Made by a program: the position numbers and the translations under genes. A DNA stretch of 42,352 bases. Source: a virus. Shown in pieces: positions 10,772-42,352 of the stretch. Numbering within the stretch: position 1 is the stretch's first letter; each line of letters opens with the position of its first letter. A model generated the notes under the pieces. It saw only the letters and a program-made list of their open reading frames with translations, ran no database searches and was not told where the DNA came from. The stretch is from IMG/VR virus record IMGVR_UViG_3300032073_000061, positions 1 to 42,352 of that record. One strand, written 5' to 3'.

Positions 10772-11103
10772 TTATTTTTATCCCTTTGTTGATTTTTTAC
10801 ATATGTTATTAATTTCATAAATGCTTGTGGTTCAACACCGAGTGCATCAACAACACCTGCTAATACTTGAGCTTGTTTCATACGATTTAATCCCGCTGAT
10901 TTTAAAGAATCAGTAAATTTTTCCATATATCTTTTCACTTCTGCAGGTAGTGGTGCTGCTTCTTCAATAGGTTCACCATGTTTTGCACCTGGAGATGTTA
11001 AGAATTTATCTTGATATTCTTTTGTAATATCCCCTAATCTCATAATGTTGTTATTTTCATCTCTGAATCTAATCTCATGTAACATTTCTTTTAGTTTTTT
11101 CAT
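10768..11103 (-). CDS. Small protein with L-x-E leader, possible prohead-internal protein (111 aa)
   Basis: The product begins MKKLKEMLHEIR, an amphipathic leader with a possible gp21-type site (LHE). The middle is Pro/Glu-rich, and residues ~53-105 form a helical domain (EVKRYMEKFTDSLKSAGLNR, then QAQVLAGVVDALGVEP). No known family comes to mind. It overlaps both neighbours by 4 nt in the cluster that lies between the protease and scaffold genes. The leader and context make a packaged internal protein the best guess. Confidence 0.55.
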   Translation of the reverse strand: MKKLKEMLHEIRFRDENNNIMRLGDITKEYQDKFLTSPGAKHGEPIEEAAPLPAEVKRYMEKFTDSLKSAGLNRMKQAQVLAGVVDALGVEPQAFMKLITYVKNQQRDKNK

Positions 11104-12868: not shown

Positions 12869-12869
12869 T

Positions 12870-13094
12870 TTATGCTCCAAACTTTTTGTATATTTTAGGA
12901 TTCCTTTTTGCTTTGGTATATCCGTACACTTTTTCTGCGTGTTTTACTTTTTTTTTGTCATCTTTCTTTTTATTCTTAGAAAATGCATAAGGTGTTTTAG
13001 GTGGCCCTTCTCCACCATCAAGATTAGCAGTTACATTTGCTTCTTTCAAATTTCGTTTAACAAGTTCTTTTACTATATATCTTAATTTATCCAT
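12870..13094 (-). CDS. Small basic protein at the gp67/gp68 position (74 aa)
   Basis: The product starts MDKLRYIVKELVKRNLKEAN, a helix of the same type as those on the 64- and 176-residue proteins, followed by a Gly/Pro stretch (GGEGPPKTP) and a Lys-rich tail. In T4 two small prohead core proteins (gp67, gp68) lie between portal and protease; this gene occupies that interval, though it is basic while T4 gp67 is acidic. It overlaps the previous gene by one base (TAATG) and abuts gp21. A core or internal protein is the best guess, based on position. Confidence 0.5.
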   Translation of the reverse strand: MDKLRYIVKELVKRNLKEANVTANLDGGEGPPKTPYAFSKNKKKDDKKKVKHAEKVYGYTKAKRNPKIYKKFGA

Positions 13095-18342: not shown

Positions 18343-20775
18343 CTATCTTGTATATCTAAATAGTCCCATAATTTGGTTAATAGGTGCAAAAGTTCCAGTA
18401 AATTTGTATAAATTGTTTTTAAATACAAATGTTATTCCCTCACTTGGAACAATAGCATCAAATCCACCGATACTATCTAATCTATCAAGTTGTGTTTTTA
18501 ACTTATTTATTACATTGACATCGTCTGATGCATTTATTTTCTTTATCAAACTATTCAAATCTTTTACCATAATTCTTGTTGACTTTGATGGATTTGCAGA
18601 TAAAAAGTTAGTCATGTTCTTCATAATCTCTGCACCCAATTCAAGAAATAATTTCTCAAATGGTTCCATGTTCTTTTTGTATAATTTAGTATGGTCTTGT
18701 TTATCAGTAGACAATACCCAATCTAAAAATTTAGGGTAGTCTTTTAATTCTTTTTTCATCTGTGGTATCTTATAACTCTTATCAAAGAATGCCCATCTCT
18801 GTACTAACTTTACCATAATATCATTTGTTATATGTGGAAAGTCTGAAGAGTTTGCTCCATTCAAAATATATTCCATCCACCATTGTTGATGATATAAAGA
18901 AACAACATCACTATCTTTCAAAGAAAACTCATTCTTTAATTTATTTACTTGACTAAAGTAATATCCTTTTCTTTTTGAGTAATCTGAAACTTTCGGAAGT
19001 TTAGTTACTGGAATATCAGATATAGTATATGTTTTTTGTACACTTTGATTTATCTGTTTTATCATTCCAGAAAGTTTATTTGCTGCACTTCTTTCATCTC
19101 CAACAACATTTCCTTTGTCATCATATTCTTTTACACCATGAAAGTATAACATTGACAATCCATATGGTATTACATTTACAGTCTTTGGATACATTACTTC
19201 AAGTGACATAAACTTAGTACCTTGTCCAAATATTTTATCTCTTTGTTTCTTATTTAGTTTACCGATTGCTTTTCCTAAATCTTTCATAGCAAAAAAGAAT
19301 GCGTCTTCTATATCACCTCTACCTGCGAACATATCTTTTATTCCAGATGCAGTTAAACTATTCTTTCCTGCATTCTTTATATGTCCTTTGTTTCTTGCTG
19401 CTCTAAGTCCACCATCTTTCCATGTGACCATTATGTTTTGACCATCAGTTTTTTCTCTTACATATTCAAGTTTACCTTGTAATGCTAAATCTACTAATTC
19501 TTTCATATCTCCGAATGTCATGTCTTTGTCATCAAACGGATGTGAAAGGTGTCCATATGCTCCACCCATAAGTAATAACTCCTTGTGTGTTTTATTGTGT
19601 GGTAAATAGGGTAATAAATCTTTTACTATTCCATATCGTTCTTCTATTGTAGTAACATCTTCTTTTGGTTCTACATTTGTTTTAGATTCGTCTTCTTCTT
19701 TTTTATTAAATGCTAATAGTTCATATCCTGCTTGAGTTGCTATTCCAGATATATGTTTTTTCCAAGTGGCATATGCTTGTGTTCCCTTATAGTCTGCTCT
19801 ATTAATCGGTGTTAATGCACCCGCTTTACCTGCTGGAAAGAAACTAACTGCATCAACATATACTGGGTGGTCATAAAAATCTTCCCTTCCTAATACAAAA
19901 TCTACTAATTGATATCCAATTCTTTCTGCTCTTCTTTTTGCAGATGCCATAAATGTATTATGACTTGGATACATAAAGGTTGGCCCGTCATCTGTTGCAG
20001 TAAGACCTTTACTTGATTCATTCATAAATGCATCAATTAGTTTATCGTTTAAAATTCTTTTTTCTCCATCTGTCTTGTCTATCTTTTTTGGAAAGAAACT
20101 TAGTTTTCTCTCAAACTTTTTCTTTAAAACCATATCAACTCTTTTATCATACTTTCCAAAAAGAGTCTTAAACATATTCTGTCTTGTCTTATCATCTAAC
20201 TCTTGACCTAAAAGTTTTCTTACTATTGTTCCAGAAATTAGTTTACCACCAATCTTTAATTGTAATGGTGATGCTACAATAACATATCCTTGATTTTCGT
20301 ATGTATCAAAATCTTTTGTTCCTTTGAAACTCTGAAAGTATTTACCACCCATTAACCTACTACTATCTTTTTCTCCTACTGCTACAACTAATATTGTAGA
20401 ATCTGAGTCATATTTATTTAAAATTTCTGATGGTGCATATGGATTCTTTACTTGAACTATTTGAGATGATGGTATTGAAAACATAGTAGTCATTATAACT
20501 TTTTTTTCTTTAAATCCTAATGGTGACCTACCAGTTTCAGTTTTATTTGATGTTGCTATAAAAACATTTTTCTTACCAAACTCACGAACAAGTTGAGAAT
20601 ATGAGTGATGATGACCTTTATGAAATGGTTGAAATCTTCCAGGGTATACAACTACTACATTGTTCTTTTTTAATTTTAATTCATCAAGTTTATTGAACGC
20701 TAATAGTTGAGTTTTCTTAGTCTCTTTACTAAGAATATCTTTAACTAAACTTTCTGTTAATACATTTAAACTCAT
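18343..20775 (-). CDS. Fusion of NMN adenylyltransferase-like domain and RNA/DNA ligase-type nucleotidyltransferase (810 aa)
   Basis: Residues ~38-195 form a Rossmann-type adenylyl/cytidylyltransferase: VVVVYPGRFQPFHKGHHH (HxGH at 52-55) and ISGTIVR at 180-186 match the NMN adenylyltransferase class (NMN + ATP to NAD). Residues ~398-810 carry ligase-superfamily motifs: motif I EKTDG with K442 as likely AMP-accepting lysine, RAARNKG (458-464), SLEVMYP (E526, motif III), EGITFVF (E779, motif IV) and LYKFTG (K791, motif V). A ~250-residue mostly helical insert separates motifs III and IV. Residues ~255-360 form a further domain I do not recognise. Whether the ligase half seals RNA or DNA, or only transfers AMP, cannot be told. 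The leader MSLNVLTESLVKDILSKE resembles other leaders here. A sigma70-like promoter lies just upstream. Confidence 0.82.
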   Translation of the reverse strand: MSLNVLTESLVKDILSKETKKTQLLAFNKLDELKLKKNNVVVVYPGRFQPFHKGHHHSYSQLVREFGKKNVFIATSNKTETGRSPLGFKEKKVIMTTMFSIPSSQIVQVKNPYAPSEILNKYDSDSTILVVAVGEKDSSRLMGGKYFQSFKGTKDFDTYENQGYVIVASPLQLKIGGKLISGTIVRKLLGQELDDKTRQNMFKTLFGKYDKRVDMVLKKKFERKLSFFPKKIDKTDGEKRILNDKLIDAFMNESSKGLTATDDGPTFMYPSHNTFMASAKRRAERIGYQLVDFVLGREDFYDHPVYVDAVSFFPAGKAGALTPINRADYKGTQAYATWKKHISGIATQAGYELLAFNKKEEDESKTNVEPKEDVTTIEERYGIVKDLLPYLPHNKTHKELLLMGGAYGHLSHPFDDKDMTFGDMKELVDLALQGKLEYVREKTDGQNIMVTWKDGGLRAARNKGHIKNAGKNSLTASGIKDMFAGRGDIEDAFFFAMKDLGKAIGKLNKKQRDKIFGQGTKFMSLEVMYPKTVNVIPYGLSMLYFHGVKEYDDKGNVVGDERSAANKLSGMIKQINQSVQKTYTISDIPVTKLPKVSDYSKRKGYYFSQVNKLKNEFSLKDSDVVSLYHQQWWMEYILNGANSSDFPHITNDIMVKLVQRWAFFDKSYKIPQMKKELKDYPKFLDWVLSTDKQDHTKLYKKNMEPFEKLFLELGAEIMKNMTNFLSANPSKSTRIMVKDLNSLIKKINASDDVNVINKLKTQLDRLDSIGGFDAIVPSEGITFVFKNNLYKFTGTFAPINQIMGLFRYTR

Positions 20776-21323: not shown

Positions 21324-22088
21324 CTATTTCCTCTTCTTAAGTATTTTCTGGTGTCTAATCCAATTTTTTCCTTTTGGATTTTTTGTTGGTTTTTTTACAA
21401 ACTTATCAATGTAAGTTTTTGCTAAGGAATCAAATTTCTTTTTTGCGTCATCTTCTTCTAAATGTTTTGAATTGTCAACAACAACAATATTTCCTTTAAA
21501 CAATCCTTGAAATCTTCCAATATTTTTTTGACATGCGTGCCAAGAATCGGTGACTAATTTTTTTGGTAACACTCTTTTTCTTGTATTATTTCTATGTAAT
21601 GCTATTTCCATAGAAGTATTTATAAAAACCATATAACAATCATATCCAATTCTTTCAAGTCTTGACTTATTATCTGCTATTTTTGCATAGTCATCACCAG
21701 TACCATCTATAATCATACCAAGTCTTCCGTTCTCGTATAGTCTCTGTCTTTCTTTTGTTAATGCTTTTGTGTAATCTCTTAATCCACTATGAACACCTTT
21801 AACTGGTTGGTCTGTCTTCTTATCAAACCCCGTTAAATCTGCAAACACTTCGTCTGGCATTGCATCCAACTCAGTTCCAAAACCAAATTTGTTTAGTGCT
21901 TTTTCAAATTCTGAATCATAGTTAACCATTTTTAAACCAGTGTATGATAGATTTATTTTCTTAGGTAAACCAAACAAACCTCTTGCTGCATATGTCTTTC
22001 CACTACCTGGTCCTCCTGCAAGAAATACTACTTTTAATATTCCCTTGTCAAAAACACCTTCGTTTAATAAATCTACTAATTTAATCAT
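21324..22088 (-). CDS. P-loop kinase, polynucleotide-kinase/zeta-toxin-like (254 aa)
   Basis: ATP-dependent kinase fold with Walker A GGPGSGKT at 25-32, an acidic IIDGTGDD segment near 126-133 and an Arg-rich lid (HRNNTRKRVLP, 165-175). This layout fits AAA_33 proteins such as T4 polynucleotide kinase's kinase domain or zeta-type kinases. No phosphatase domain is attached, so it would do only the 5'-phosphorylation half of Pnkp if it acts on nucleic acid ends. The substrate is not determinable. The leader MIKLVDLLNEGVF precedes the P-loop and closely resembles MIKLKELLNEKK of the 152-residue head-cluster protein, hinting at packaging into the capsid. A TATTTATA box lies ~23 nt upstream; the lysozyme and NMNAT-ligase genes follow. 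Confidence 0.75.
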   Translation of the reverse strand: MIKLVDLLNEGVFDKGILKVVFLAGGPGSGKTYAARGLFGLPKKINLSYTGLKMVNYDSEFEKALNKFGFGTELDAMPDEVFADLTGFDKKTDQPVKGVHSGLRDYTKALTKERQRLYENGRLGMIIDGTGDDYAKIADNKSRLERIGYDCYMVFINTSMEIALHRNNTRKRVLPKKLVTDSWHACQKNIGRFQGLFKGNIVVVDNSKHLEEDDAKKKFDSLAKTYIDKFVKKPTKNPKGKNWIRHQKILKKRK

Positions 22089-24301: not shown

Positions 24302-24558
24302 TACTCGTCCTCATCACTCATCCAAGCACTTCCAGTAAGTATGTTTAGTATTTCACTATGAGCATACTCTTGTGACTTGGATGATAAAGAAGAAACTGAA
24401 GATGGTTGACTCCCCTCGTACTTTACAAAAGTCTGACTACCACTAAGATTAAGACTTAGAGTACTTACACTTGTTTCCAGTACTTGTGAAAAATCAATAC
24501 TTCCAGTTTCACTTGTGTCAAATATAACCCATTTTCTATTTGAAAATCTATCACTCAT
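24301..24558 (-). CDS. Small fibre-associated protein (85 aa)
   Basis: Ser-rich protein starting MSDRFSNRKWVIFDTSETGS and containing DFSQVLETSVSTLSLNLSGS and AHSEILNILTGSAW. Small proteins with a similar opening (NRKxVIFDxSE...DFSQVLETS) occur, as I recall, beside fibre genes in marine T4-like phages, with no known function. It starts 8 nt inside the end of the 3001-residue fibre gene and ends overlapping LamG protein 3, so it is made with them. It might act as a fibre chaperone or connector; nothing in the sequence decides. Confidence 0.55.
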   Translation of the reverse strand: MSDRFSNRKWVIFDTSETGSIDFSQVLETSVSTLSLNLSGSQTFVKYEGSQPSSVSSLSSKSQEYAHSEILNILTGSAWMSDEDE

Positions 24559-27500
24559 CTTTTATCTCTTCTAATTTAAATTTATACTTTTTGTTATTCA
24601 AACGGTTTATTAAGAATAAATCATCTTTACCCTCTTGAATTGTCCAATCTCCTTTCGTACCATCTACTTCATTTCCAGTATCTTTGTCAATGTTAGATAA
24701 CTGCATATCAGTAGTGTATATGTTGTTCCATCTTAAAGTTGAAGAACCTAAATCATATGTTGCACTTGCTGCTGGGTCTATATCACCTGCTGATGTTAGT
24801 CCTTCAATCTGCCCACTTGTATTTATTGTTAAGGCATTTGTTCCTGCACTTGGATTAGCATTTCTTGGGTCTGTTTCTGCATCAACATTTATTTTGAATT
24901 TATCAGAATCGCTATTGTCTATACCCATTGTGTATTGTCTTGTACCACTTATATCAAAGGTAAGACCAGCATCACCAGTTTCGTATTGTGATACTATTAT
25001 CTGTGGATGTGTGTTAGCACCATGTGCTCTTATATGTAAAGATGCTGATGCTTTTGTTTTGTGCCATCTTGCTAAATTAGTAGCGTTAGTAGCAGTTGCC
25101 TCTGGTAAATCATCAAACTCAGTTGCTGAACTACCACTATAAATGTTTAACGGACCTGATAAATGTGATGGTGCAGATGCACCACGACCAAATAAGAAGT
25201 ACATATTTTCCTGCCCATAACTACCACTCATATTATTGCTAAAAGAAAACGCTGACTGCCTCATAGGGTCTATATCATCTGCAAAAGTTGATGAGTGAGA
25301 GTTTTGCCACCCATATGTCCACATTGTAAAACCCATACTTGCGTGACCATATGTTGGAGCAGTATGACCCGATTTAATATTTATATCAGTTTTAACACGA
25401 TTATGATAGGCATCCATTGAAATTGCACCAGTTGAAGTTGAATTAAAATGTTCACCAGTTTTAAAATCAATATCATTACCAAAAAATCTACTTTGATTTG
25501 AAAATGAATTTCCCATTCCCAGAGCAAATGAACCACTATATTGTCTATTTGGTTTACTAGCCGCCGACCAACCACCTGCACCCGCACCATATGCAATAGT
25601 TCCTGCAAGAACTCCTTGTCTAATTCTATATGAATCTGCAAATGGGGCTGCTCCAAACGCTGCAATTATCACATCAGCATTATTTGTTGTAGCTGTAAAT
25701 GACTCTTGTTCTGCCATTATAGTTGCTATGTAACCAAATGTTTGGTCTGGTGCCCAAGGTTGGGTATTACCCGTAGCCCTTGAAGTAGGAAATCTAAATG
25801 GTGTACCTGCTACTTTTTGGTTAAATGAGTCTAATGATGCATAAGACTCTGTAACATGAAATTTTGCTTGTGGTGCATCTGTCCCGACTCCCATTGCCGT
25901 ATGAGATGGAAATTTTATACCACCTTCACTAAATAAAGAACCTCTTAACTCTATAGAACCAGATACTTTTAAATCATTTTTTATATCAGCGGTAGTTGTC
26001 TCAAAGTCACCACCTTTTAATTCAAACCCATCTTCATCTACTTTCATAAATGATTTTTGGTCACTATATATCAACATACCATCTTGATTCATCATTGCAA
26101 ATGGTTTAATTCTTAATCCACTTGATGCTAATGTTGATTTTAATTTACCTATACCAACATAACCAAGGATTAATGGTTGGTCTGTTTTTACTTCGGGTGC
26201 AAAAATTTGTATTTCAAATTTTAATCGTATCTCATCATATCCACTTTTAGCAGTTGAGAATTTTAGCCCCAATTCATTTCTTCCGATTTGTTTTAAAACA
26301 TCAAACTTTTGTTGTGCTATTAAATTATCTGGTGTTCCACTTGTTGAACCAAGAACTGATACTACTAATTGTACAGATGATTTTGCTGCTACACCATATG
26401 CTGTTTTTTGCCATTCTTCACTAATAGCAACAACTCCACCAACAAAATGGTTACCTAACCCTTGACTTGAGAAGTCATGATAGAATGATGCTTCAGCAGT
26501 ATCATCTCCACTACCACCAATCGTACCATCTAAATCCCCATTAAATCCACCGAATACTGCTTCTGGGATTGATGCACCAGAGTTAGAACCATCTCCATAT
26601 AGCCAATGTTGTACTTGCCCCGATGTATTTTCAACATCAGATGCTTTTACCCATGTACTTGCATCATCAATTAAATCATCAGCTCCACCTTGTGAAAAAT
26701 CAAAGTCATTGAATCCAACTGAACCAGTTAAGTCTGTTACTACTGGAAGTCCTTTTGAACCAGAACCTACAGATACAATATCTGTTGCACCATCTGTTAC
26801 TCTAAGTCCACTAAATGTTGAACCAAACCCATCTGTTGCACTTGAGTTAATAATTGTCTGGTCTTTAGTTATTGCAGTTTCACTTAGTGTCCAACCTGCT
26901 ATTTCATTTCTTGTTTCAGATATTTCAAATACTCTGGTACTACCATCATCTGAAAATCCTCGTATACCATATTTTTGTGTTGATGCTCCAGCAGCTCCAT
27001 CAGTTAAACCTATTGATATCCTTGGACTTCCTTTTGTTCCACCAACTTCTAATTTATTTCCAAAGAAACCATAGTTTGCTGCTACTGACTCTGCATCCAA
27101 TCCACCTTGTAGTTTCATGTTAGATGCAGTTACATTACCTGCTGCGTCAACAAGAAAGTTAGAAGATGAGAACTCACCACTTGCAGAAATTATTACATTA
27201 GGAACATCCTCTGTTCCACCTACCGCTAACTTATCACCAAAGAAACCAAATGTTGCCGTAATACCTTCTGCTGCTAACCCACCACTTAAGTCAATATTAG
27301 ATGCAGTAACATTACCATCACCAGTGATAATAAACCCACTTGCTGATATAAACATATTAGTTCTTGTTGCATTATCACCACTTGGAGAACCACTAATAAA
27401 GAAACTTACATCATCTGGAGCCACATTAGTTGATGCTCCATCTTTGACACTTTGTAATACATCAACTGATATTGAGTCTGTATCAAATCCTGCGAATGTT

Positions 27501-30500
27501 GCGTTACCAAATAATCCAACTACTCCATCATCTCCTATACTTAGTCCAGATGCAGTTGTTGATACCGTTCTTGCAGTATTTAAATCTGATTGAGTAGTTG
27601 AATCAACCATTACAAATCTACCATTAGCGGTAGAACTAAATGAAGAACCTGGTCCTCCAGTATTACCTACTGCTCCTTGTCCACCACTTCCACCAGTTGT
27701 ACCTTCACCACCAGTTTGACCAACTTGACCAGTCTGACCAACTCCACCAGTTTGACCAACTTGACCAGTTTGACCGACTCCACCACTTCCACCAGTTGTA
27801 CCTTCACCACCAGTACCACCAGTTTGACCAACACCACCAGTTTGACCAACTTGACCAGTTTGACCAACTTGACCAGTTTGACCGACTCCACCACTTCCAC
27901 CAGTTGTACCTACACCACCAGTTCCACCAGTCTGACCAACTCCACCAGTTGTACCTACACCACCAGTTTGACCAGTCTGACCAACTCCACCAGTTGTACC
28001 TACACCACCAGTTCCACCAGTCTGACCAACTCCACCAGTTGTTCCAACACCACCAGTACCACCAGTTTGACCAACTTGACCAGTAACACCAACTCCACCA
28101 GTACCACCAGTTTGACCAACTTGACCAGTAACACCAACTCCACCAGTTACACCAACTCCACCAGTTTGACCTACACCACCAGTTTGACCAACACCACCAG
28201 TACCACCAGTTTTACCGACACCACCAGTTTGACCAACTTGACCAGTAACACCGACACCACCAGTAACACCAACTCCACCAGTACCACCAGTCTTACCAAC
28301 ACCACCAGTATTTCCAACTCCACCAGTAACACCAACTCCACCAGTAACACCGACTCCACCAGTACCACCAGTTTTACCAACTCCACCAGTCTTACCGACT
28401 CCACCAGTAACACCGACACCACCAGTTACACCAACTCCACCAGTTTGACCGACTTGACCAGTTTGACCAACTCCACCAGTAACACCAACACCACCAGTAC
28501 CACCAGTTTTACCAACACCACCAGTATTACCAACTCCACCAGTAACACCAACTCCACCAGTAACACCAACTCCACCAGTACCACCAGTTTTACCGACTCC
28601 CCCAGTCTTACCGACTCCACCAGTTACACCAACTCCACCAGTTACACCAACTCCTCCAGTTTGACCGACTTGACCAGTTTGACCAACTCCACCAGTTACA
28701 CCGACACCACCAGTTACACCTACACCACCCGTACCACCAGTCTTACCTACTCCACCAGTAACACCTACACCACCAGTTACTCCGACTTGACCAGTTTGAC
28801 CAACACCACCAGTTACACCGACACCACCAGTTACACCAACTCCACCAGTACCACCAGTTTTGCCAACACCACCAGTATTTCCAACTCCACCAGTAACACC
28901 GACACCACCAGTTTGACCTTGTTGACCAGTAACACCGACTCCACCAGTAACACCGACACCACCAGTACCACCAGTTTTACCAACTCCACCAGTATTACCA
29001 ACTCCACCAGTTACACCAACTCCACCAGTAACACCGACACCACCAGTAACACCTACACCACCAGTACCACCAGTTTTACCGACTCCACCAGTATTACCAA
29101 CTCCACCAGTAGTTCCACTTGAACCACTTGTTCCACTCGTTCCACTTGTACCATCATCACCATCTGCACCACTCGCTCCTTCAGATTCACCAGTAGTTAC
29201 CGAGGTAACTGCTGATAAAGTTTGTGCTGTTATTTGGTCTGCTTCTATTTTTGCACCCGATAACTCCAATCCATCTCTTGTTAGTTTTAAAAAGTTATTT
29301 GGTGATGCGTATATTAAAATACCTTCTGGTATAACTTCAATTCTTGCTTCGTTTACACTTAATTTTGCATCATCATATTGTATTTCTGTGTAAGTGGTAT
29401 TTGCACCAAGTGTTTGGTCTCGTGTTAACGAACCACTAACAACAAACAATAACTTGGAAGTCTTCTTAGGAATTGCTGCGGTTACACTTACTTTCGTATC
29501 ACTTGTACCTGGTTTAAATGTCTTTCCTGGTAAACTACTAAAGTCACTATCCGCTGCTGGAGCAAACTTAACATAAGAAGACGATGGGCTTGCTAAAGAA
29601 CCAGTTAAGTAGAACAAGGAAATAAATTGGTCTGACATACTTCTTGTTGTTCCTGCACCTGCCAATGAGTGAGATAATTTACTCTGTATAGATGCGAATA
29701 CCGTTTTACCCTCATCTACATTAACGGATACTTCTTGATGAAGAGAATATGATAATGGTTTCATCTGAGCAAAATCAGATTCTTCTACAAAGATATCAAA
29801 TGTATTACTATTTTTGAAAGCACCATTTGTACTATAGTTACTTCTGTTAGTCAATGACGATGATACTGGAGTTCCTATCGGATTGTCTGCTGGTGAACCA
29901 TCACCAACCGAACCACTATGAAATACCCAATTATTTGGTATACTTCCTACATTCTGACCACCTCTTGGTTCTGCTCCAGCGTTATTTGTTGTTCCAGTTT
30001 CAAAACTTTGATTACTTACTTCATTGTCTCCACCACTCGTATCTGTAAAAGAACCAGATGCAATCATTACGGTTTCTCTACCAAACTCATTGTCAATAGT
30101 CAACCCTGGAAGTGCTGAACTTAATTCAACTTGACCATTAGATATACTGGAGGTTGTCATCGTCCAACCTGCTATTTCATTACCATCTTCTCCAAGTTTA
30201 AATACTTCAGTTACACCCGATGAACCAGAGTTACCAGTAAAACCTGCTATTCCAAATTTAGCATTACCATCAGCATCTTCATGGTCTAATAATTGACCTA
30301 TTTTGATTCTTGGAGCATCTCTTGCTCCACCAATTTCTAATTTTGTTCCAAAGAAACCAAAGTTAGATACAACGGTTTCTGATTCTAAACCACCTTGAAG
30401 TTTCATATTTGAAGCAGTTACATTTCCTACTGCATCAACAAAAAATCCAGATGAAGATATAATTCCACTACCACTAATTAATACATTTGGACTTCCCTTT

Positions 30501-33500
30501 GTACCACCAACTTCTAATGAGTCTCCAAAAAATCCAAAGTTAGATACAACTGATTCTGCTTCTAACTCATTTTGAAGTTTCATATTTGAAGCAGTTACAT
30601 TACCAAGTTCATCTATAAAAAAGTTAGATGAAGAAACAACTCCACTACCACTAATCAATACATTCGGATTATTTCTTGTACCACCTACTTCAAGACTATC
30701 ACCAAAGAAACCAAAGTTAGATACAATAGATTCTGCTGATAATTCGTTTTGTAGTTTCATATTTGATGCAGTTACATTACCATCTGTATCAACGAAGAAT
30801 CCAGAAGAAGATATGATACCACTACCACTTATCAACACATTTGGACTTCCTTGTGTACCACCAACTTCTAAAGCACTTCCAAAGAATCCAAAATTAGATA
30901 CTACATTTTCAGACTCTAATGTGTTTGCCAATTTCATGTTTGAAGCGGTAACATTACCAAGAGAATCTACAAAAAATCCAGAAGATGATATTTCACCACT
31001 TGCTGATATAATAACATTAGGAACATCTTGAGTTCCACCCACACTCATTCTGTCTGAAAAGAAACCAAAGGTTGCTGCTAATCCACCACTTAAATCTATA
31101 TTTGACGCTGTAACATTACCATCAGCAGTAACAACAAATCCACTTGCTGAAATAAACATATTACTTCTGTCTGAGTTATTACCACTTGGTGAACCACTAA
31201 TAAAAAAACTTATATCGTTTGGGTGTAAAGTATCCGTATCAGCAGAAGATTTCACACTTCTAAGTACATCTACAGAAATAGAATCTGTGTCAAAACCTGC
31301 GAAAGATGCACTTCCAAATAATCCTACTACACCAGTAGATGTATCCATTGATAGTCCAGATTCAGTACCATTTATTGCAAATTGGTCATCTACATTACTT
31401 GCATCTGAATCATCTGCCATGATAAATCTACCATCCGTACCATCAAATGACGCTCCTGGTTCACCTGCTTGTCCAGTTTGACCAACTCCACCAGTATTAC
31501 CAACACCACCAGTATTACCTACTTGACCAGTTTGACCGACTCCACCAGTATTACCCGCTCCACCAGTATTACCAACTCCACCAGTCCCACCAGTTTTACC
31601 AACTCCACCAGTATTACCTGCTCCACCAGTATTACCTACTTGACCAGTTTGACCAACTCCACCAGTCTGTCCTACTTGACCAGTCTGACCTGCTGCACCC
31701 GTATTTCCAACTCCACCAGTTTTACCGACACCACCAGTATTACCCGCTCCACCAGTATTACCAGTATCACCAGTACCACCAGTACCACCAGTTTTACCGA
31801 CACCACCAGTATTACCCGCTCCACCAGTATTACCTACTTGACCAGTTTGACCGACTCCACCAGTCTGTCCTACCGCACCAGTATTACCAACTCCACCAGT
31901 ATTACCTACTTGACCAGTTTGACCAACTCCACCAGTATTTCCAACACCACCAGTATTTCCAACATCACCAGTATTACCAACACCACCAGTTTTACCGACA
32001 CCACCAGTATTACCAGTATCACCAGTACCACCAGTACCACCAGTACCACCAGTATCACCGACACCACCAGTACCACCAGTTTGACCTACTTGACCAGTTT
32101 GACCAACACCACCAGTTATACCGACACCACCAGTTACACCAACTCCACCAGTTTTACCAACACCACCAGTAACACCTACACCACCAGTACCACCAGTTTT
32201 ACCAACACCACCAGTTCCACCAGTTTGACCGACTTGACCAGTTTGACCTACTCCACCAGTATTACCAACATCACCAGTATTACCAACACCTCCAGTTTTA
32301 CCGACACCACCAGTTTTACCAACACCACCAGTATTACCGACTTGTCCAGTCTGACCAACTCCACCAGTTTGACCAACACCACCAGTTACTCCGACACCAC
32401 CAGTACCACCAGTACCACCAGTTTTACCAACACCACCAGTAACACCTACACCACCAGTTCCACCAGTTTGACCTACTTGACCAGTTTGACCAACTCCACC
32501 AGTCTGTCCTGCCGCTCCAGTATTACCTACACCACCCGTTTGACCAACTTGACCAGTTTGACCTGCCGCTCCAGTATTTCCTACTCCACCAGTATTACCT
32601 ACTTGGCCAGTTTGACCAACTCCACCAGTATTACCTGCTGCTCCTGTATTACCTACACCACCAGTTTTACCTACACCACCAGTTTGACCTGCTCCACCAG
32701 TATTACCTACTTGTCCAGTCTGTCCAACTCCACCAGTTTGACCTACACCACCCGTAGTTCCACTTGAACCACTCGTACCACTTGTACCACTCGTACCATC
32801 TTCACCATCTTCACCATCTTCACCATCCGCCGCTCCTGCTATTGTTGCTACATTAGTATCACCTTTTGTATCAAGATTACCTTGAGCAGTTATATCACCT
32901 GCTTCTAACGCATTAACTTGTAAATCTTCTGCTTTTATAGTTAGACCAGTTGAATCAAGTTTTACATATGAATCTGGATTTGAATAGATTAATATACCAT
33001 CTGGTGTAACTTCAACTTTCCTTGATTCTTCTGTTATAACAAAATCATCAAAAAATAATTCTGTTCTTGGTGTTGACCCAGTACTTGCGGTTATATCTCT
33101 TCCAATACTACCACTTATTTGTAATACTACACCTTGTATATCTTCTGCTAATGGTGCTGAAAAGTATTTTTTACCATACCCTTCACCAATACCAAAAGAT
33201 TCCCAATAACCACCTGGTCCAATTTCTGCATAATCATCTGCAGATGTTGCTACACCTTTTGCTTTTGGATATAATAATTTATTTTCATCAAATGCTTGAA
33301 TAGAACCAGAATTATCAAGTGAATACATTCTCCAATATGTATCAACACCTGCTCTACCACCTGCTGCATAAAAAGAAACATAGATAGAGTTTCCACCTGA
33401 AAAACTTCCAGTAGCTATCTGTTCTATGAAGAAACTACCAGTTTGGTAAGTCTCTGTTCCAGAAGGTGTTTTTCTGAACGGGTCTAATCTTGGGTCTGAT

Positions 33501-33556
33501 GGAAATCCAGTGACCTTTCCGAATTTTGCTCTTAACTCTTTAAACCGTTTTGCCAT
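24551..33556 (-). CDS. Giant collagen-like tail fibre (3001 aa)
   Basis: Very long fibre protein. Order of parts: N-terminal beta domain (1-~240); collagen-like Gly-X-Y tract 1 (~243-700) with a period-6 core such as GQTGGV/GNTGGV; a globular repeat region (~820-1095) of ~59-residue units containing NVTASNMKL, FGFFG and EVGGT; a jelly-roll-like domain (~1100-1400); collagen-like tract 2 (~1464-1972); two more ~59-residue units; and a long C-terminal region ending in a segment (YDLGSSTLRWNNIYTTDMQL...) typical of marine phage fibres. Both tracts open with GTSGTSGTSGSSGTTGG, showing internal duplication. Collagen-like tracts trimerise into stiff rods, so this is probably a long trimeric host-contact fibre. 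No intramolecular chaperone motif was recognised at the C-terminus. Confidence 0.85.
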   Translation of the reverse strand: MAKRFKELRAKFGKVTGFPSDPRLDPFRKTPSGTETYQTGSFFIEQIATGSFSGGNSIYVSFYAAGGRAGVDTYWRMYSLDNSGSIQAFDENKLLYPKAKGVATSADDYAEIGPGGYWESFGIGEGYGKKYFSAPLAEDIQGVVLQISGSIGRDITASTGSTPRTELFFDDFVITEESRKVEVTPDGILIYSNPDSYVKLDSTGLTIKAEDLQVNALEAGDITAQGNLDTKGDTNVATIAGAADGEDGEDGEDGTSGTSGTSGSSGTTGGVGQTGGVGQTGQVGNTGGAGQTGGVGKTGGVGNTGAAGNTGGVGQTGQVGNTGGVGNTGAAGQTGQVGQTGGVGNTGAAGQTGGVGQTGQVGQTGGTGGVGVTGGVGKTGGTGGTGGVGVTGGVGQTGGVGQTGQVGNTGGVGKTGGVGKTGGVGNTGDVGNTGGVGQTGQVGQTGGTGGVGKTGGTGGVGVTGGVGKTGGVGVTGGVGITGGVGQTGQVGQTGGTGGVGDTGGTGGTGGTGDTGNTGGVGKTGGVGNTGDVGNTGGVGNTGGVGQTGQVGNTGGVGNTGAVGQTGGVGQTGQVGNTGGAGNTGGVGKTGGTGGTGDTGNTGGAGNTGGVGKTGGVGNTGAAGQTGQVGQTGGVGQTGQVGNTGGAGNTGGVGKTGGTGGVGNTGGAGNTGGVGQTGQVGNTGGVGNTGGVGQTGQAGEPGASFDGTDGRFIMADDSDASNVDDQFAINGTESGLSMDTSTGVVGLFGSASFAGFDTDSISVDVLRSVKSSADTDTLHPNDISFFISGSPSGNNSDRSNMFISASGFVVTADGNVTASNIDLSGGLAATFGFFSDRMSVGGTQDVPNVIISASGEISSSGFFVDSLGNVTASNMKLANTLESENVVSNFGFFGSALEVGGTQGSPNVLISGSGIISSSGFFVDTDGNVTASNMKLQNELSAESIVSNFGFFGDSLEVGGTRNNPNVLISGSGVVSSSNFFIDELGNVTASNMKLQNELEAESVVSNFGFFGDSLEVGGTKGSPNVLISGSGIISSSGFFVDAVGNVTASNMKLQGGLESETVVSNFGFFGTKLEIGGARDAPRIKIGQLLDHEDADGNAKFGIAGFTGNSGSSGVTEVFKLGEDGNEIAGWTMTTSSISNGQVELSSALPGLTIDNEFGRETVMIASGSFTDTSGGDNEVSNQSFETGTTNNAGAEPRGGQNVGSIPNNWVFHSGSVGDGSPADNPIGTPVSSSLTNRSNYSTNGAFKNSNTFDIFVEESDFAQMKPLSYSLHQEVSVNVDEGKTVFASIQSKLSHSLAGAGTTRSMSDQFISLFYLTGSLASPSSSYVKFAPAADSDFSSLPGKTFKPGTSDTKVSVTAAIPKKTSKLLFVVSGSLTRDQTLGANTTYTEIQYDDAKLSVNEARIEVIPEGILIYASPNNFLKLTRDGLELSGAKIEADQITAQTLSAVTSVTTGESEGASGADGDDGTSGTSGTSGSSGTTGGVGNTGGVGKTGGTGGVGVTGGVGVTGGVGVTGGVGNTGGVGKTGGTGGVGVTGGVGVTGQQGQTGGVGVTGGVGNTGGVGKTGGTGGVGVTGGVGVTGGVGQTGQVGVTGGVGVTGGVGKTGGTGGVGVTGGVGVTGGVGQTGQVGQTGGVGVTGGVGVTGGVGKTGGVGKTGGTGGVGVTGGVGVTGGVGNTGGVGKTGGTGGVGVTGGVGQTGQVGQTGGVGVTGGVGVTGGVGKTGGVGKTGGTGGVGVTGGVGVTGGVGNTGGVGKTGGTGGVGVTGGVGVTGQVGQTGGVGKTGGTGGVGQTGGVGQTGGVGVTGGVGVTGQVGQTGGTGGVGVTGQVGQTGGTGGVGTTGGVGQTGGTGGVGTTGGVGQTGQTGGVGTTGGVGQTGGTGGVGTTGGSGGVGQTGQVGQTGQVGQTGGVGQTGGTGGEGTTGGSGGVGQTGQVGQTGGVGQTGQVGQTGGEGTTGGSGGQGAVGNTGGPGSSFSSTANGRFVMVDSTTQSDLNTARTVSTTASGLSIGDDGVVGLFGNATFAGFDTDSISVDVLQSVKDGASTNVAPDDVSFFISGSPSGDNATRTNMFISASGFIITGDGNVTASNIDLSGGLAAEGITATFGFFGDKLAVGGTEDVPNVIISASGEFSSSNFLVDAAGNVTASNMKLQGGLDAESVAANYGFFGNKLEVGGTKGSPRISIGLTDGAAGASTQKYGIRGFSDDGSTRVFEISETRNEIAGWTLSETAITKDQTIINSSATDGFGSTFSGLRVTDGATDIVSVGSGSKGLPVVTDLTGSVGFNDFDFSQGGADDLIDDASTWVKASDVENTSGQVQHWLYGDGSNSGASIPEAVFGGFNGDLDGTIGGSGDDTAEASFYHDFSSQGLGNHFVGGVVAISEEWQKTAYGVAAKSSVQLVVSVLGSTSGTPDNLIAQQKFDVLKQIGRNELGLKFSTAKSGYDEIRLKFEIQIFAPEVKTDQPLILGYVGIGKLKSTLASSGLRIKPFAMMNQDGMLIYSDQKSFMKVDEDGFELKGGDFETTTADIKNDLKVSGSIELRGSLFSEGGIKFPSHTAMGVGTDAPQAKFHVTESYASLDSFNQKVAGTPFRFPTSRATGNTQPWAPDQTFGYIATIMAEQESFTATTNNADVIIAAFGAAPFADSYRIRQGVLAGTIAYGAGAGGWSAASKPNRQYSGSFALGMGNSFSNQSRFFGNDIDFKTGEHFNSTSTGAISMDAYHNRVKTDINIKSGHTAPTYGHASMGFTMWTYGWQNSHSSTFADDIDPMRQSAFSFSNNMSGSYGQENMYFLFGRGASAPSHLSGPLNIYSGSSATEFDDLPEATATNATNLARWHKTKASASLHIRAHGANTHPQIIVSQYETGDAGLTFDISGTRQYTMGIDNSDSDKFKINVDAETDPRNANPSAGTNALTINTSGQIEGLTSAGDIDPAASATYDLGSSTLRWNNIYTTDMQLSNIDKDTGNEVDGTKGDWTIQEGKDDLFLINRLNNKKYKFKLEEIKDE
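27650..29165 (-). repeat. Collagen-like DNA repeat tract 2
   Basis: About 1.5 kb of tandem 9/18-bp units built from CCACCAGT(A/T)... blocks on the plus strand, coding for Gly-X-Y triplets (mainly GGV, GQT, GVT, GKT, GGT) in the giant fibre. Long antisense frames here (Ser/Thr/Asn-rich) are by-products of the repeat. Near-identical units make slippage and recombination likely. Confidence 0.9.
30300..31110 (-). repeat. Tandem ~59-residue fibre repeats
   Basis: Four to five direct repeats of ~177 bp, each coding for NVLISGSGIISSSGFFVD-type, NVTASNMKL and NFGFFG...LEVGGT segments. Two further copies lie at about 27010-27260 after the second collagen tract. The copies differ by scattered substitutions, so they are older than the collagen units. 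Confidence 0.75.
31455..32830 (-). repeat. Collagen-like DNA repeat tract 1
   Basis: About 1.4 kb of tandem 9/18-bp units coding for Gly-X-Y triplets, richer in GNTGGV and GAAG than tract 2. It ends next to three GED triplets (DGEDGEDGEDG) and the GTSGTSGTSGSSG seed shared with tract 2, which points to duplication of a tract-plus-flank block. Confidence 0.9.
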
Positions 33557-36234: not shown

Positions 36235-36408
36235 ATGAAGAAACGAATAAATATAACTATCCCCGATGACATTTGGACATGGGCGTCACAATATTCTAAA
36301 ATGAATTATACAAGTTTATCTGGTTTGATTACAAGTCTTCTTGTTGAAAAGAAAAATGACTATAAACCAGTATCAAAGAATGTTCTTAGGTCTAACTCTC
36401 GTAAGTAA
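36235..36408 (+). CDS. Ribbon-helix-helix (Arc/CopG-type) DNA-binding protein (57 aa)
   Basis: The only plus-strand gene in the window and below the usual size cut-off. It starts at an ATG with a strong AAGGAG 5 nt upstream and reads MKKRINITIPDDIWTWASQY..., ending at a TAA at 36406-36408. The order is a beta strand (RINITIP), a first helix (DDIWTWASQYSKM), and a second helix beginning SLSGLITSLL, the pattern of ribbon-helix-helix repressors that bind as dimers. The basic tail (SKNVLRSNSRK) could add DNA contacts. Its last 17 nt overlap the end of the SbcCD gene on the other strand. Its likely task is repression of a phage or host promoter; the divergent fibre promoter is an obvious candidate. 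Confidence 0.78.
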   Translation: MKKRINITIPDDIWTWASQYSKMNYTSLSGLITSLLVEKKNDYKPVSKNVLRSNSRK

Positions 36409-39400
36409 CTTTGCTAAATGAATTTACTTTGTTTATATTAATAAGAGTATCCATTATATCTCTCATTGAATCAAGGTGTGATATAATTAATATGAAATCA
36501 AAGGTTGATTTTAAGTAATCAAATAACATAAACATGGAGTTTAGATTATCAGAATCTAAGTTACCAAATCCCTCGTCTATAGCAAGAAAATTAGGTCTTG
36601 GTAAGTTTGAAATACCAATTAAAGAAGTTCTTATTGCAAGTGAAGAAACAAACTTTTCCATACCACTTGTCATTTCAAGAGGCCATCTACCATTTTCATA
36701 GTCAATAAATGTATTTATATTTTTACCATCAACTTCAAACTTTAAATTAAATTCTACTATCTGTGATAGGATACTATTGACTTCATTTTCCAATACTGGT
36801 AGAACACTTGATATTAATTCATATGGAACACCATTTCTTTTAACTGCTTCCATGTAATACTCGTATGCAGAATAGTCATCTTGTAAGTCTTGTAACCTTT
36901 CAATAGAATCTTTTATCGTTTGTATCTTATTTTCACATACTGCTACACTTGTCTTAATCGTAGTTAACTCTTCTTGACATCTATTTAGTCTTCTATTCTC
37001 GGCATCAAGACCATACTCCAACACTTTTACTTGTGCTCTTATATCTTGGTTCTTTCTTATTTGTTCGGAGTTTTTACGATAGATTTCTATTTTCTTCTCA
37101 ACTTCTTCTATCTCATCAACTAATTTTTCAAATGAATAGTTCTTTTTATCTAAGTCAAATATTAAAACTTCTAATTGTTGGGTTTCATGTGTATATGTTT
37201 CAGATAGTTCGTCTAACTCTTTAGACTCTAATATAACTTTTTCTAAGTTAGCCATCTCTTCTGACATATCTATCTTTTGTTTCTCAAAAGAGTCTTTATG
37301 TTCTTCTTCTTTGTCAATTTCTTCATCAATCTCTACACCTTTTATGTATAAAGGATTACTAACACAAGAATCACAATCTAAGTTTGGATTCCATTTATTT
37401 AAATCCTCTTTACTATCAAATAGATTGTTTAACTTTACATCAGTAATATTTATATTATTATTTATATCAGTTATGCTGCTTTGTAAAAACCCATATCTTT
37501 CCAGAGAGTTGTTTATTTTTTCTGCATCAAATGTGTTTATTTTTGTTTGTATATCCGATACTTTTTTCTGTATAGTTTCTTTACTTTCTACCATAGAGTG
37601 TAACTCTAAACTAATTGAATCTTGACTATTTACTAAAAGTCGTTTTTTATCTGTCAACTCATCAAAGGAAACCCCATCTATTGGAACCTTAACTATCTTT
37701 TTAGATATCTTTTTTATTTCACTTAGATACCCATCTCTTTGTTTTTTATAACCACGAACTTCTTTATCTTTATCTTTATCAAGTTTATTTAATTCTTTTA
37801 ATTCTTTGTTTAAATCAACTATTGAAGATGAGAAGTCTTGTTTCTCTAAATCTCTTATTACAGACGACACTTCGTTTGACTCTTCATTAGATAATTTCCA
37901 TAATTCATCAAACAATCCAATATCTAAAAATTGTGCTAATGTGTCTTTCTTTTCTGCTTGACTTTTATCAATAAATCCAGTATTGTTGTTTTGTAAAGAC
38001 ATAGCAGTTAAGATAAAGTCTTCATAAGAACCAATGTAAGAACATATACTTTTATTTGTTTCTCGTCTTTGTTCTCCGTTTAGGTTTTTTACTTTTCCTC
38101 CAATCTCACTCCAAAAATCAACATCAACCTTTACTTGACCTTTCTTGTTCTTTTTTGCTCTTCTCTCAATAAAGTAATCAACACCATCTATTTCAAAATT
38201 AAACTTACATTTAAATGTAGTTTTATCAGTATTCATTATGTTTACTGCTTTAAATGTTCTTGCACATTTGTCAAAAACACAATATGTTAAAGCATCTAAC
38301 AATGAAGACTTACCACTTGCGTTACTTGCAAATAAACCCATACTACCAATCATGTTAGAAAAATCAACTACATTATCTTCTCCATAACTGAACATATTAT
38401 TAAATTCAAACTTCTTTGGTTTCCAACTTATATTCCTACCAACCTCAACATTAGGTAGTTTTAGATTTAATTCTTCGTTTATCTTACAAACTCTTCTTAA
38501 AGTATCATCATCTAACACATTAAACTTTTGTTCTAAGTAATCAACAATTAGTTTATTCTGATATATTGTATCTCTTATGTTACCAAGGTTTATTTTAGAT
38601 AGAGTTGAGTTTTGTCCTATCTGACTAAGTTTGTCTGTTCTTATTACACCAAATTCTTTTATTTTTGCTTTTTGTTTTATAACTGCTATTAGTTTTTTAA
38701 TATCTGCCGTACTTGTTTTTTCAAACTTAACCCTAAGTCTTGGATATTTTGGTAAATCATCTAATGGTGGTATATGTCCATTTACAACATTCATAGTATA
38801 GTAACCATAATCATTAGGTACATTAACAAATTTAGATTTTCTCTTCTCTACATCCCATACTAAAAATCCTTTACCAAAATCTTCTCCATGATTTTGTTGT
38901 ATCAATGAACCTGGATATGCAATAGTCTTTTCATCGTTAAGGTATTGTCTTTTATGTATGTCTCCTAATAACACCATATCAAATCCATCAAATATATCCT
39001 TATCAATATCTGAATTAGGTAGTATGAAACCAAAGTCTGTCTGTGAACCAAATACTGACCCATGATACAATGCTATTTTTGTTTTAGAATCATATTCACT
39101 TGCTTTTACATACGAGTCTGCTTCTTCAAAAACACTCATCACACTAAAACCAACATCTCCAATTTGATATACTCCAGAATCTTTTATGTAATGAATATTT
39201 GGATTGTCTAACGCTTTTATAATTGGACTTAGAGCATCTAATCTATGTTTATTGTTTAGATTACAATCGTGATTTCCTGGTAAAACAAGAAGAGGACATA
39301 GATTTGCTAATTCTGTAAAAAACTCAGAGGTTAGGTCTATCAACTCTGGAGACATATCTAATTTAGCATGAACTATATCTCCACCTAAATATATTACAGA

Positions 39401-39538
39401 ATTTTCTTTATTCTTATCTATTTCTTTGTATACTTTTTCAAAGACACTTCTATATTCTTTATGTCTCTTGACATTTCTAATATGTATGTCTGATAGGTGA
39501 TATATTCTGTCTACTTTTTCTATTGGTAATTTTATCAT
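36392..39538 (-). CDS. SbcD-SbcC (gp47-gp46) fused recombination nuclease (1048 aa)
   Basis: Residues 1-~370 are an Mre11/SbcD-type nuclease: LSDIHI (15-20), GGDIVH (52-57), PGNHDC (87-92), ALYHGS (156-161), LGDIHKR (191-197). Residues ~373-1048 are a Rad50/SbcC-type ATPase: P-loop ASNASGKSS at 404-412, long coiled coils, a zinc hook CDSC at 722-725, signature TSGMEKF at 957-963, Walker B FLAIDEGFG at 985-992, and switch H1021. In T4 the two subunits are separate genes and process DNA ends for recombination-dependent replication; here they form one chain. The P-loop has Ala404 where Gly is usual. The gene overlaps the primase stop by 4 nt. Confidence 0.93.
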   Translation of the reverse strand: MIKLPIEKVDRIYHLSDIHIRNVKRHKEYRSVFEKVYKEIDKNKENSVIYLGGDIVHAKLDMSPELIDLTSEFFTELANLCPLLVLPGNHDCNLNNKHRLDALSPIIKALDNPNIHYIKDSGVYQIGDVGFSVMSVFEEADSYVKASEYDSKTKIALYHGSVFGSQTDFGFILPNSDIDKDIFDGFDMVLLGDIHKRQYLNDEKTIAYPGSLIQQNHGEDFGKGFLVWDVEKRKSKFVNVPNDYGYYTMNVVNGHIPPLDDLPKYPRLRVKFEKTSTADIKKLIAVIKQKAKIKEFGVIRTDKLSQIGQNSTLSKINLGNIRDTIYQNKLIVDYLEQKFNVLDDDTLRRVCKINEELNLKLPNVEVGRNISWKPKKFEFNNMFSYGEDNVVDFSNMIGSMGLFASNASGKSSLLDALTYCVFDKCARTFKAVNIMNTDKTTFKCKFNFEIDGVDYFIERRAKKNKKGQVKVDVDFWSEIGGKVKNLNGEQRRETNKSICSYIGSYEDFILTAMSLQNNNTGFIDKSQAEKKDTLAQFLDIGLFDELWKLSNEESNEVSSVIRDLEKQDFSSSIVDLNKELKELNKLDKDKDKEVRGYKKQRDGYLSEIKKISKKIVKVPIDGVSFDELTDKKRLLVNSQDSISLELHSMVESKETIQKKVSDIQTKINTFDAEKINNSLERYGFLQSSITDINNNINITDVKLNNLFDSKEDLNKWNPNLDCDSCVSNPLYIKGVEIDEEIDKEEEHKDSFEKQKIDMSEEMANLEKVILESKELDELSETYTHETQQLEVLIFDLDKKNYSFEKLVDEIEEVEKKIEIYRKNSEQIRKNQDIRAQVKVLEYGLDAENRRLNRCQEELTTIKTSVAVCENKIQTIKDSIERLQDLQDDYSAYEYYMEAVKRNGVPYELISSVLPVLENEVNSILSQIVEFNLKFEVDGKNINTFIDYENGRWPLEMTSGMEKFVSSLAIRTSLIGISNLPRPNFLAIDEGFGNLDSDNLNSMFMLFDYLKSTFDFILIISHLDSMRDIMDTLININKVNSFSKVTYES

Positions 39539-40440: not shown

Positions 40441-40779
40441 TCAGTTACCTTTTAATATTTCTATAAATTTATCAAATTCTAATGAGATATAAGTTTTAGA
40501 CCTATTTCTTTTAAATACTACACATGGTGTATGGTCACCACAATTCTCTTCTGCTTGTTCGTGTGATTTCCATATATTAAGTGATTCTTGATTTTTACAC
40601 TCAATACTTAATGGTATCAACCTTCTTGCTGCTGGTGACATATGTATATCTTCTCCAGACTCTCCCATTACTGCTGTTTTGATATCATCGGGTTCAAGTT
40701 CTTCAAAGTTTTCTAATAAAACTTCTCTAACCTTGTTTTGTAATACACGACCTTTTGCTTTTCTTGAACGACTTAGCAT
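40441..40779 (-). CDS. PD-(D/E)XK nuclease, Holliday-junction-resolvase-like (112 aa)
   Basis: Small nuclease. The catalytic layout is seen as E40/D44 (GESGEDIH) and E60-x-K62 (LSIECKN), with a helix carrying HEQAEEN (73-79), the fold's conserved Gln. The N-terminus is basic (SRSRKAKGRVLQNKVREVLL). The length fits phage and archaeal-type resolvases. In T4-like replication such an enzyme could cut branched DNA before packaging, a job done in T4 by the unrelated gp49; this is inference. AGGAAAAGG lies upstream of the ATG, and a TATATATATATT run in the gap resembles the recurring box weakly. Confidence 0.75.
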   Translation of the reverse strand: MLSRSRKAKGRVLQNKVREVLLENFEELEPDDIKTAVMGESGEDIHMSPAARRLIPLSIECKNQESLNIWKSHEQAEENCGDHTPCVVFKRNRSKTYISLEFDKFIEILKGN

Positions 40780-40823: not shown

Positions 40824-42341
40824 TCAAAGATTAAATTTATTTTTTATCCTTTTAAATTCGTATTTTGCCCACCTTTCGGCTCTCTCTTCCCATTTATTAT
40901 TATCATGTGGGTCTAATCCTTTGTATGTAGCCATTGTTCCTGCTTGAGTGTATTTTTTCATAAACTTCTTTACACCAAGTTGTCTTGCATCAAGAGCATG
41001 TTTAATTTCATGTAAAATAGTTATAAGAAATTCTTTTACACTTGGATATGACCTTCTAAGATATATTGTATCTGTTTCTGGGACATACTCTGCTAATGTA
41101 CTTCCTGTAGCAAATTTAACTTTTGATTTTAAATTATATGCTTTTACTATCTCAGTTGAGATATCTAAGTAATCTATTCTTTCTTGTAGTAGAGATTCAG
41201 TTAGTTTATCTATCTCAATGTATCCTTCACTTTCTTCATAACTATAGTCATAATCTTCAGTTGCTCCCAAATCAGTAACTTTATAGTTTGCTGTATATTG
41301 TTCTCCACCACCCTTTGTACCAAATATATCATCTGCTACTGGAAAATCTACTTGTTTATATCCACCATTGTCAAACCATAATTCTGGTTTTCCAGTTAAA
41401 GTACCAAGTTCTCGTTTTTCTCCTTTTCTAATAAACATCGTATCTGGTTCCCCAGCATCCGCTGAAAATCCACCACCAACTGAAGTACTTTCTTTGATTT
41501 TGTTTAGTATCCTAAACTTAGATGCCGATTTTCCGTTTATTTCTAAATCTCCTTTATCATTCATCTGTATAGTTTTAATTACTACTTTCTTATTTTTAAA
41601 TTTTCCCATTAAAACGGTATCACCAATTTCAAGTGGTAACTCAAATCCCTCAACTTGTATAGAATCGTTTATTCCTCTACCACCTTTATCCATAGTTGTT
41701 GCGAACTTTTTTAGTTTTGGAAACGCTCTAAACTGACTTAATTTTTTTTGTTTAGTCCACTTCATCTTATCAAAAACTTTCATTCTCATATGTTGTTTTA
41801 CGATATAGTAAATATCCAACACATTTCCACCTTGTGATTTTATCCATTTTTTGTACTTTAGTACGAGTTTAGCAGAAACATGCTCATGTCCATGATGTGT
41901 CCAAAAACCTTTCTTTGGATGTATTTTTGCCGTTGAATCTTTACCTATATCGTGGAATAATGCAGCAAGTGCGAAGTCTATATCACCAGTTCTTAGTGCT
42001 CTATTTGTAACTGCTATAGTATGTTTTAAAACATTACCTTCTGGATGAGCATCTCTTCGTTGGTCATAGTTCTTAAGATTATAAACCCTCTTCTTTAAAT
42101 CAATAGGAAGAGCGTTATAAATATCTTTAAATTTCTTTGGTTTCTTACGGACTGCTATCTCTTTTATTTTTTTCTTTGTGTCGGTTTTTGTAAAGGGGCC
42201 TCTTCGTAATGTTGAAAATTTTACGGGTGTCTCAATACCGAATAATTTCTTTGGTGCTAAAATTCTCAATGTAATCATCTTTCTACTATTATCAACACCC
42301 AATGTTTCAAATTCTATTTCTTTATATTTCTTACCCTTCAT
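40824..42341 (-). CDS. Fusion of HD phosphohydrolase domain and HExxH metallopeptidase-like domain (505 aa, start possibly outside window)
   Basis: Residues ~75-215 form an HD domain of the type attached to CCA-adding enzymes: EGNVLKHTIAVTNRAL (H107), AALFHDIGKDSTAKIH (HD 130-131) and THHGHEHVSAKLV (H149-H154). In CCA enzymes this domain hydrolyses 2',3'-cyclic phosphates and 2'-phosphates. Residues ~232-285 look like a small beta-barrel. Residues ~385-505 contain ILHEIKHALDARQ with HEIKH at 444-448 and WEERAERWA (484-492), a probable zinc peptidase site (zincin). No nucleotidyltransferase domain is present in the visible part. The ATG is only 11 nt from the window edge and has no clear ribosome-binding site, so the gene may extend further upstream. 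The gene's role is unknown. Confidence 0.75.
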   Translation of the reverse strand: MKGKKYKEIEFETLGVDNSRKMITLRILAPKKLFGIETPVKFSTLRRGPFTKTDTKKKIKEIAVRKKPKKFKDIYNALPIDLKKRVYNLKNYDQRRDAHPEGNVLKHTIAVTNRALRTGDIDFALAALFHDIGKDSTAKIHPKKGFWTHHGHEHVSAKLVLKYKKWIKSQGGNVLDIYYIVKQHMRMKVFDKMKWTKQKKLSQFRAFPKLKKFATTMDKGGRGINDSIQVEGFELPLEIGDTVLMGKFKNKKVVIKTIQMNDKGDLEINGKSASKFRILNKIKESTSVGGGFSADAGEPDTMFIRKGEKRELGTLTGKPELWFDNGGYKQVDFPVADDIFGTKGGGEQYTANYKVTDLGATEDYDYSYEESEGYIEIDKLTESLLQERIDYLDISTEIVKAYNLKSKVKFATGSTLAEYVPETDTIYLRRSYPSVKEFLITILHEIKHALDARQLGVKKFMKKYTQAGTMATYKGLDPHDNNKWEERAERWAKYEFKRIKNKFNL

Positions 42342-42352
42342 AGTAAGATTAT

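Follow-up and report, generated by a model that had tools for sequence, protein, structure and literature searches.

A CCA-enzyme-type HD module and a zincin-like module in one modular, possibly packaged and cut chain of a T4-like phage

Class II CCA-adding enzymes (the E. coli Cca type, annotated as tRNA nucleotidyltransferases in phages) and the polyvalent proteins of phages, in which disparate enzymatic domains and a zincin share one chain (Iyer et al. 2017), are among the described systems closest to the locus analysed here. Another is given by the head proteins of phage T4 that are cut by the prohead protease gp21, which cleaves after glutamate according to the relevant passages of PMC9026906; in the ten-residue T4 capsid-targeting sequence, as described in the same passages, residues 4 and 7 serve mainly for targeting and residues 8 and 10 for processing. 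Finally, phage tRNA and RNA repair sets, such as T4 Rnl1 and kinase or those of jumbo phages, bring RNA-ligase-like, kinase and nucleotidyltransferase modules together in one phage group, with the tRNA repair set known piecewise in jumbo phages from what sections of PMC7824862 report.

The window, that is, the whole stretch of DNA that was analysed, comprises 42,352 bases and is the entire virus record (IMGVR_UViG_3300032073_000061). It belongs to a T4-like phage, as indicated by the PHROGs matches for the major head protein, portal, terminase and head-tail adaptor, and also encodes a Peptidase_S77 prohead protease, an SbcCD-like protein and a primase. On the minus strand, an ORF from 40824 to 42341 codes for 505 residues counted from its first ATG, as a previous sequence-only reading had given it, and the frame runs on without a stop up to the window end (40824-42352, 508 aa open). 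In relatives, M1 of this ORF is an internal methionine and the frames continue upstream of it, mostly into a CCA-adding domain; the ORF would be the 3' part of a modular protein of the phage, with its 5' end beyond the window. From that side, the chain comprises a module J with no assigned function (residues 1-61, 42159-42341), an HD phosphohydrolase module (residues 62-224, 41670-42158), a module that we take to be KOW-like (residues 231-284, 41490-41651), a module G, likewise with no assigned function (residues 285-345, 41307-41489), and a zincin metallopeptidase-like module (residues 388-505, 40827-41180), all on the minus strand. Residues H107, H130-D131, H444-E445-I-K-H448, E485 and E489 lie where the sequence-only reading had placed them. 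Given that the whole ORF recovered 79 loci in other phage contigs and its C-terminal part (residues 370-505) 64, both halves are conserved and do not represent chance motifs. A phmmer search of PDB sequences with the window protein gave no match.

The HD module matches Pfam PF01966 above the cut-off (E=3.1e-9) and, in NCBIfam, falls at the HD stretch of CCA-enzyme models, covering positions 254-355 of 466 in TIGR02692 and 213-337 of 409 in PRK10885, with scores far below the full-length cut-offs, as expected of a fragment. The relatives at the 79 loci align to residues 1-222 with identities of up to 91%, and H107, H130, D131, H149, H152 and H184 are invariant in all 15 aligned HD sequences. 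By its sequence, the HD part is assigned to the tRNA-end-repair (CCA) enzyme family, in agreement with the CCA-enzyme-type domain proposed before, and it resembles the HD of class II CCA-adding enzymes in model position as well. As in that enzyme class, head, RNA-binding part and HD occupy one chain in relatives, two long ones having a PolyA_pol head with E ~1e-30. Since a CCA-adding head is present in the same chain in 36 of 48 related HD ORFs (that of the window excluded), a class II CCA-adding nucleotidyltransferase head quite likely lies upstream, beyond the contig; seven of the 48 are complete yet have no such head and another five are cut too early to tell. The earlier claim that the chain comes without any nucleotidyltransferase is unproven because the frame is open at the contig end, and truncation is the likely cause of the apparent absence. 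The J stretch has its closest DNA matches (94-95%) in contigs both with and without a CCA head, and the last 28 bases of the window match 16 contigs, CCA and non-CCA types alike. Unlike the class II enzyme, the window chain would have its head, if present, beyond the contig, and it continues into the KOW-like, G and zincin modules.

The last module is an independent zincin in its AF2 model (pLDDT 85.6, pTM 0.79) and probably a working peptidase, whose substrates may be host or phage proteins. In an alignment of 41 zincins, H444, E445 and H448 of the HEIKH motif (residues 444-448, 40998-41012, minus strand) are invariant, as are E485 and E489 (40875-40889, minus strand), and D451, the Asp three residues after HExxH, is nearly so. 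The order of elements in the model is a helix, three strands, the HExxH helix, another helix and a glutamate helix, and the HExxH helix after a three-stranded sheet, with a Glu on a later helix, was found for all 41 sequences and in the model. Thus, of the third zinc ligand that had been expected near residues 485-489, the invariant glutamates and their location in the last helix (fragment residues 113-129) stand, with the role as ligand being that of a candidate. Element order, HExxH, the last-helix Glu and the Asp three residues past HExxH are shared with MPTase-PolyVal (PF18818). Unlike that family, the window zincin scores below the Pfam gathering cut-off (E=0.0035, 17.9 bits against 27.5) and so is not assigned to it, and its own family is mostly free-standing, at ~120-140 aa; the zincins of relatives reach 14.7 to 19.7 bits. 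In Foldseek, all PDB matches had E >0.01, with abylysin/selecase and PprI as the best ones, and VIA comparisons gave Z 7.9 for PprI (rmsd 4.1, 99 aligned) and Z 7.2 for ArdC (rmsd 3.0, 88 aligned), in a range where a common arrangement may suffice. The best viral fold match was an IrrE-like phage protein (E 5.8e-4). The fold matches are zincins of several kinds with modest scores; it is on motif, element order and conservation that we base the family reading. Searched against PDB sequences, the zincin profile gave a chance match only; the zincin was absent from the 50,697 phage records searched, and among genome contigs two loci were obtained, one of them in the unclassified MAG TMED198.

Across the relatives, the order of modules changes, with J, HD, KOW-like, G, kinase, CCA, NMNAT, ligase and zincin recurring both as fusions and as separate genes. 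J recurs between other modules, the KOW-like module also occurs as a free-standing protein of ~95 aa, and zincins are combined with G or, at one locus, with the KOW-like and kinase modules. At loci L123 and L143 (ORF from 5500), NUDIX, zincin and G share one chain of 403 aa. The G module, which has the motif DxGEPDT and no Pfam match where scanned, is found as a small free-standing protein too (three loci), and such separate G proteins often start like a capsid-targeting sequence. The G-linker region, used alone as a query, gave no relatives.

In the window ORF, an [LIVM]xE motif stands at three borders, namely IKE61 between J and HD (42159-42167), IKE284 between the KOW-like module and G (41490-41498) and LQE387 between G and the zincin (41181-41189), all on the minus strand, with the HD/KOW border devoid of it. 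This motif is the signature of T4 gp21 and, at the level of sequence, the borders look like gp21 sites, each of the three being a possible prohead-protease site at which the chain might be cut. Cuts at E61, E284 and E387 would release pieces of the 505-aa chain with calculated masses of ~7, 26, 11 and 14 kDa. A gp21-type protease is encoded in the window (12275-12880, minus strand, Pfam Peptidase_S77 E=1e-29), and the likely cutting site of the major head protein, identified by eye, reads QLVQE/SS in the window phage and QIVSE/A in Flavobacterium phage immuto. Over all non-redundant module borders, partly drawn by ourselves, the motif is present at 52 of 67 versus 413 of 3073 windows inside modules (13.4%), and 2000 composition-preserving shuffles gave a mean of 22.3 and a maximum of 37; not counted here are three types of border that do no more than divide the NMNAT-X-LIG family (motif in 13/37). 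With borders defined independently of the chosen modules, the excess is weaker (77/149 versus a background of 22.7%). Each of the 20 unique 12-mers immediately preceding HD has E as its last residue, 18 of them with L, I, V or M two places earlier, and nine of 11 unlike contexts carry [LIVM]xE versus a background of 23%, the binomial chance of at least nine in 11 being ~7e-5 if the contexts are independent.

Similar motifs are enriched at the starts of separate genes. The form M-x(4-9)-[LIVM]xE was found in 15 of 26 module clusters (the other 11 are without it) versus 15 of the 72 other clusters that have at least three members, and at 10.5% of internal control positions. Those 15 other clusters include accessory proteins (NUDIX-, HAD-like) and a lysozyme-like one, the latter probably by chance; in the terminase, primase, RusA-like, portal and recombination clusters, the start motif is present in less than half. 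When a hydrophobic residue was required at the preceding place too, 17 of 98 clusters had E at residue 10, versus 2 to 9 clusters for any other position between 5 and 25. Module starts share this E10 and the hydrophobic spacing with T4 ipII, ipIII and gp24 (T4 record); T4 ipI has no E10. Unlike the T4 internal proteins, the modules described here are enzymes in long fused chains, and the motif is found inside the chain as well. In the window, a capsid-targeting-like start (MIKLVDLLNE) is found at the N-terminus of a P-loop kinase (zeta/AAA_33-like by Pfam, 21324-22088, minus strand). Small genes near the head genes (9518-9976, 10768-11103 and 11100-11630, minus strand) also have capsid-targeting-like starts, e.g., MIKLKELLNE and MKKLKEMLHE. 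A search of the open-licence literature, preprints excluded, found neither capsid-targeting starts nor prohead-protease polyproteins described for marine phages.

The reading that we prefer, with a probability of roughly 0.5, is that the ORF belongs to a modular, probably virion-packaged and possibly gp21-cut polyprotein that holds a tRNA-end-repair module and a PolyVal-like peptidase. Given that the borders look gp21-like and that free-standing homologous modules start with T4-like capsid-targeting sequences, we would on balance favour the packaging of these modular proteins in the head; that the fused chain is then cut at its borders during head maturation has slightly less than even odds. 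The CCA head beyond the contig would restore CCA and the HD module would have RNA ends with cyclic or 2'/3' phosphates as its substrates; this would amount to tRNA end repair, in a genome that also has RNA-ligase-like, kinase and NMNAT-like genes. The modules meet at [LIVM]xE borders that resemble prohead-protease sites, and the pieces (HD with KOW-like, G, and zincin) would enter the cell together with the DNA. Such a chain recalls the polyvalent proteins in combining disparate enzymatic domains with a zincin; unlike in those, the modules here are of the CCA, NMNAT and RNA-ligase types, the borders are prohead-protease-like and the phage is T4-like, with injection being a step that we infer.

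Alternatively, the chain could be a conventional multi-domain enzyme that is synthesised after infection in the host cell and is neither packaged nor cut, its genes having been fused by the loss of stop codons and its border motifs being relics of former N-termini. Besides being fused, modules often lie side by side as separate genes, and the N-terminal LxE of free-standing zincins aligns with the position of LQE387, both of which are consistent with this origin. However, the [LIVM]xE kept in nine of the 11 unlike contexts before HD has persisted though the remaining start sequence is gone, and even as a relic, the motif would amount to a capsid-targeting-like start where the genes are separate. 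We regard the conventional enzyme as a rather unlikely explanation.

The HD and zincin modules usually occupy different loci. Among 65 zincin ORFs, the one of the window included, HD is present in a single case, that of the window, and 42 have no other module of the set examined. NMNAT-LIG is next to the HD ORF or part of it in 41 of the 43 cases with enough sequence, and a RusA-like gene follows the zincin ORF in 48 of 53. In the window, the zincin is followed by a RusA-like gene (40441-40779, minus strand, PHROG 244, E=7.5e-19) and NMNAT-LIG is ~20 kb away; thus, two usual loci are joined. HD and zincin are thus paired by a mosaic join and do not form a regulatory unit, and this exact fusion was seen once among viral contigs. 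An assembly chimera, with real HD and zincin modules in a contig that wrongly joins two genomes or loci, would explain why the pairing occurs in the window alone, from loci that are usually different, and why two of its junction patterns had no match in any further viral contig. This is improbable considering that no stop interrupts the frame across two further modules and three joints, that the GGRGINDS linker after HD is found in other HD fusions too, and that the NMNAT-LIG of this contig is not beside another HD gene; the present data agree with a one-off fusion as well as with a chimera. Slightly less probable still is that the zincin cleaves its own chain, in the way that Iyer et al. (PMC5512222) propose autoproteolysis by metallopeptidase domains for phage P1 DdrB and other polyvalent proteins; the zincin is indeed at the C-terminus of the window chain, but 42 of the 65 zincin ORFs hold no other module of the set, and the same border motifs are present in fused chains that lack a zincin. 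A nucleotide-sensing HD hydrolase that controls the peptidase, as the sequence-only reading had suggested from the two domains in one chain, was rejected as very improbable, since the domains do not co-occur (one in 65) and this HD belongs to a family of tRNA enzymes. Its other suggestion, two independent functions, fits because the modules usually occupy different genes.

As for the genes with which the HD module might act, the window encodes an NMNAT-like and RNA-ligase-like protein of 810 aa (18343-20775, minus strand, CTP_transf_like E=1.2e-7), which relatives usually have next to, or fused with, CCA-HD. Its C-terminal part has KxDG and a fold nearest to RNA ligases, the search with the ligase-like module (18343-19590) being topped by RNA ligases, including T4 Rnl1 and Rnl2, at weak scores (E from 6e-3 upwards, VIA Z at most 6.5); the ligase profile gave just weak ribosomal and patatin matches among PDB sequences. 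Taken together, the ligase-like module, kinase, CCA enzyme and HD resemble a tRNA repair set, the activities being predicted from these likenesses. Unlike in the phage repair sets described above, the modules are fused in changing order and have capsid-targeting-like starts, and it is this combination of enzyme modules with such starts and prohead-protease-like borders that deserves attention. If the borders are real gp21 sites, these T4-like phages would bring ready-made repair enzymes into the cell, early enough, perhaps, to work ahead of transcription and so against fast tRNA- or NAD-directed defences. An obvious candidate for such a role would be a phage CCA-adding enzyme, which may fall short if the cut removes more than CCA. 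In its widest form, which we put forward tentatively and consider doubtful, a lineage of T4-like phages would build its injected enzymes as shufflable polyproteins in which each module ends at a prohead-protease site; gp21 would free the kit in the head (CCA-adding enzyme with HD end-healing, kinase, RNA ligase, NMNAT and zincin), and the kit would reverse tRNA and NAD damage by host defences before phage gene expression. The border rule would also offer a simple way of listing injected proteins in uncultured T4-like phages.

Regarding the phage itself, its portal comes closest, among named phages, to those of Microcystis phage Mel-JY01 (54%) and Flavobacterium phage immuto (58%); relatives of this kind do no more than hint at a marine origin. 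PADLOC gave no match. A single ORF of 1048 aa (36392-39538, minus strand) combines metallophosphoesterase and SbcC-like parts, of the T4 gp47 and gp46 type. Finally, an ORF of 3001 aa (24551-33556, minus strand) lies in a stretch where GC (up to 0.45 per 2 kb) and GC skew exceed those of the rest of the window.
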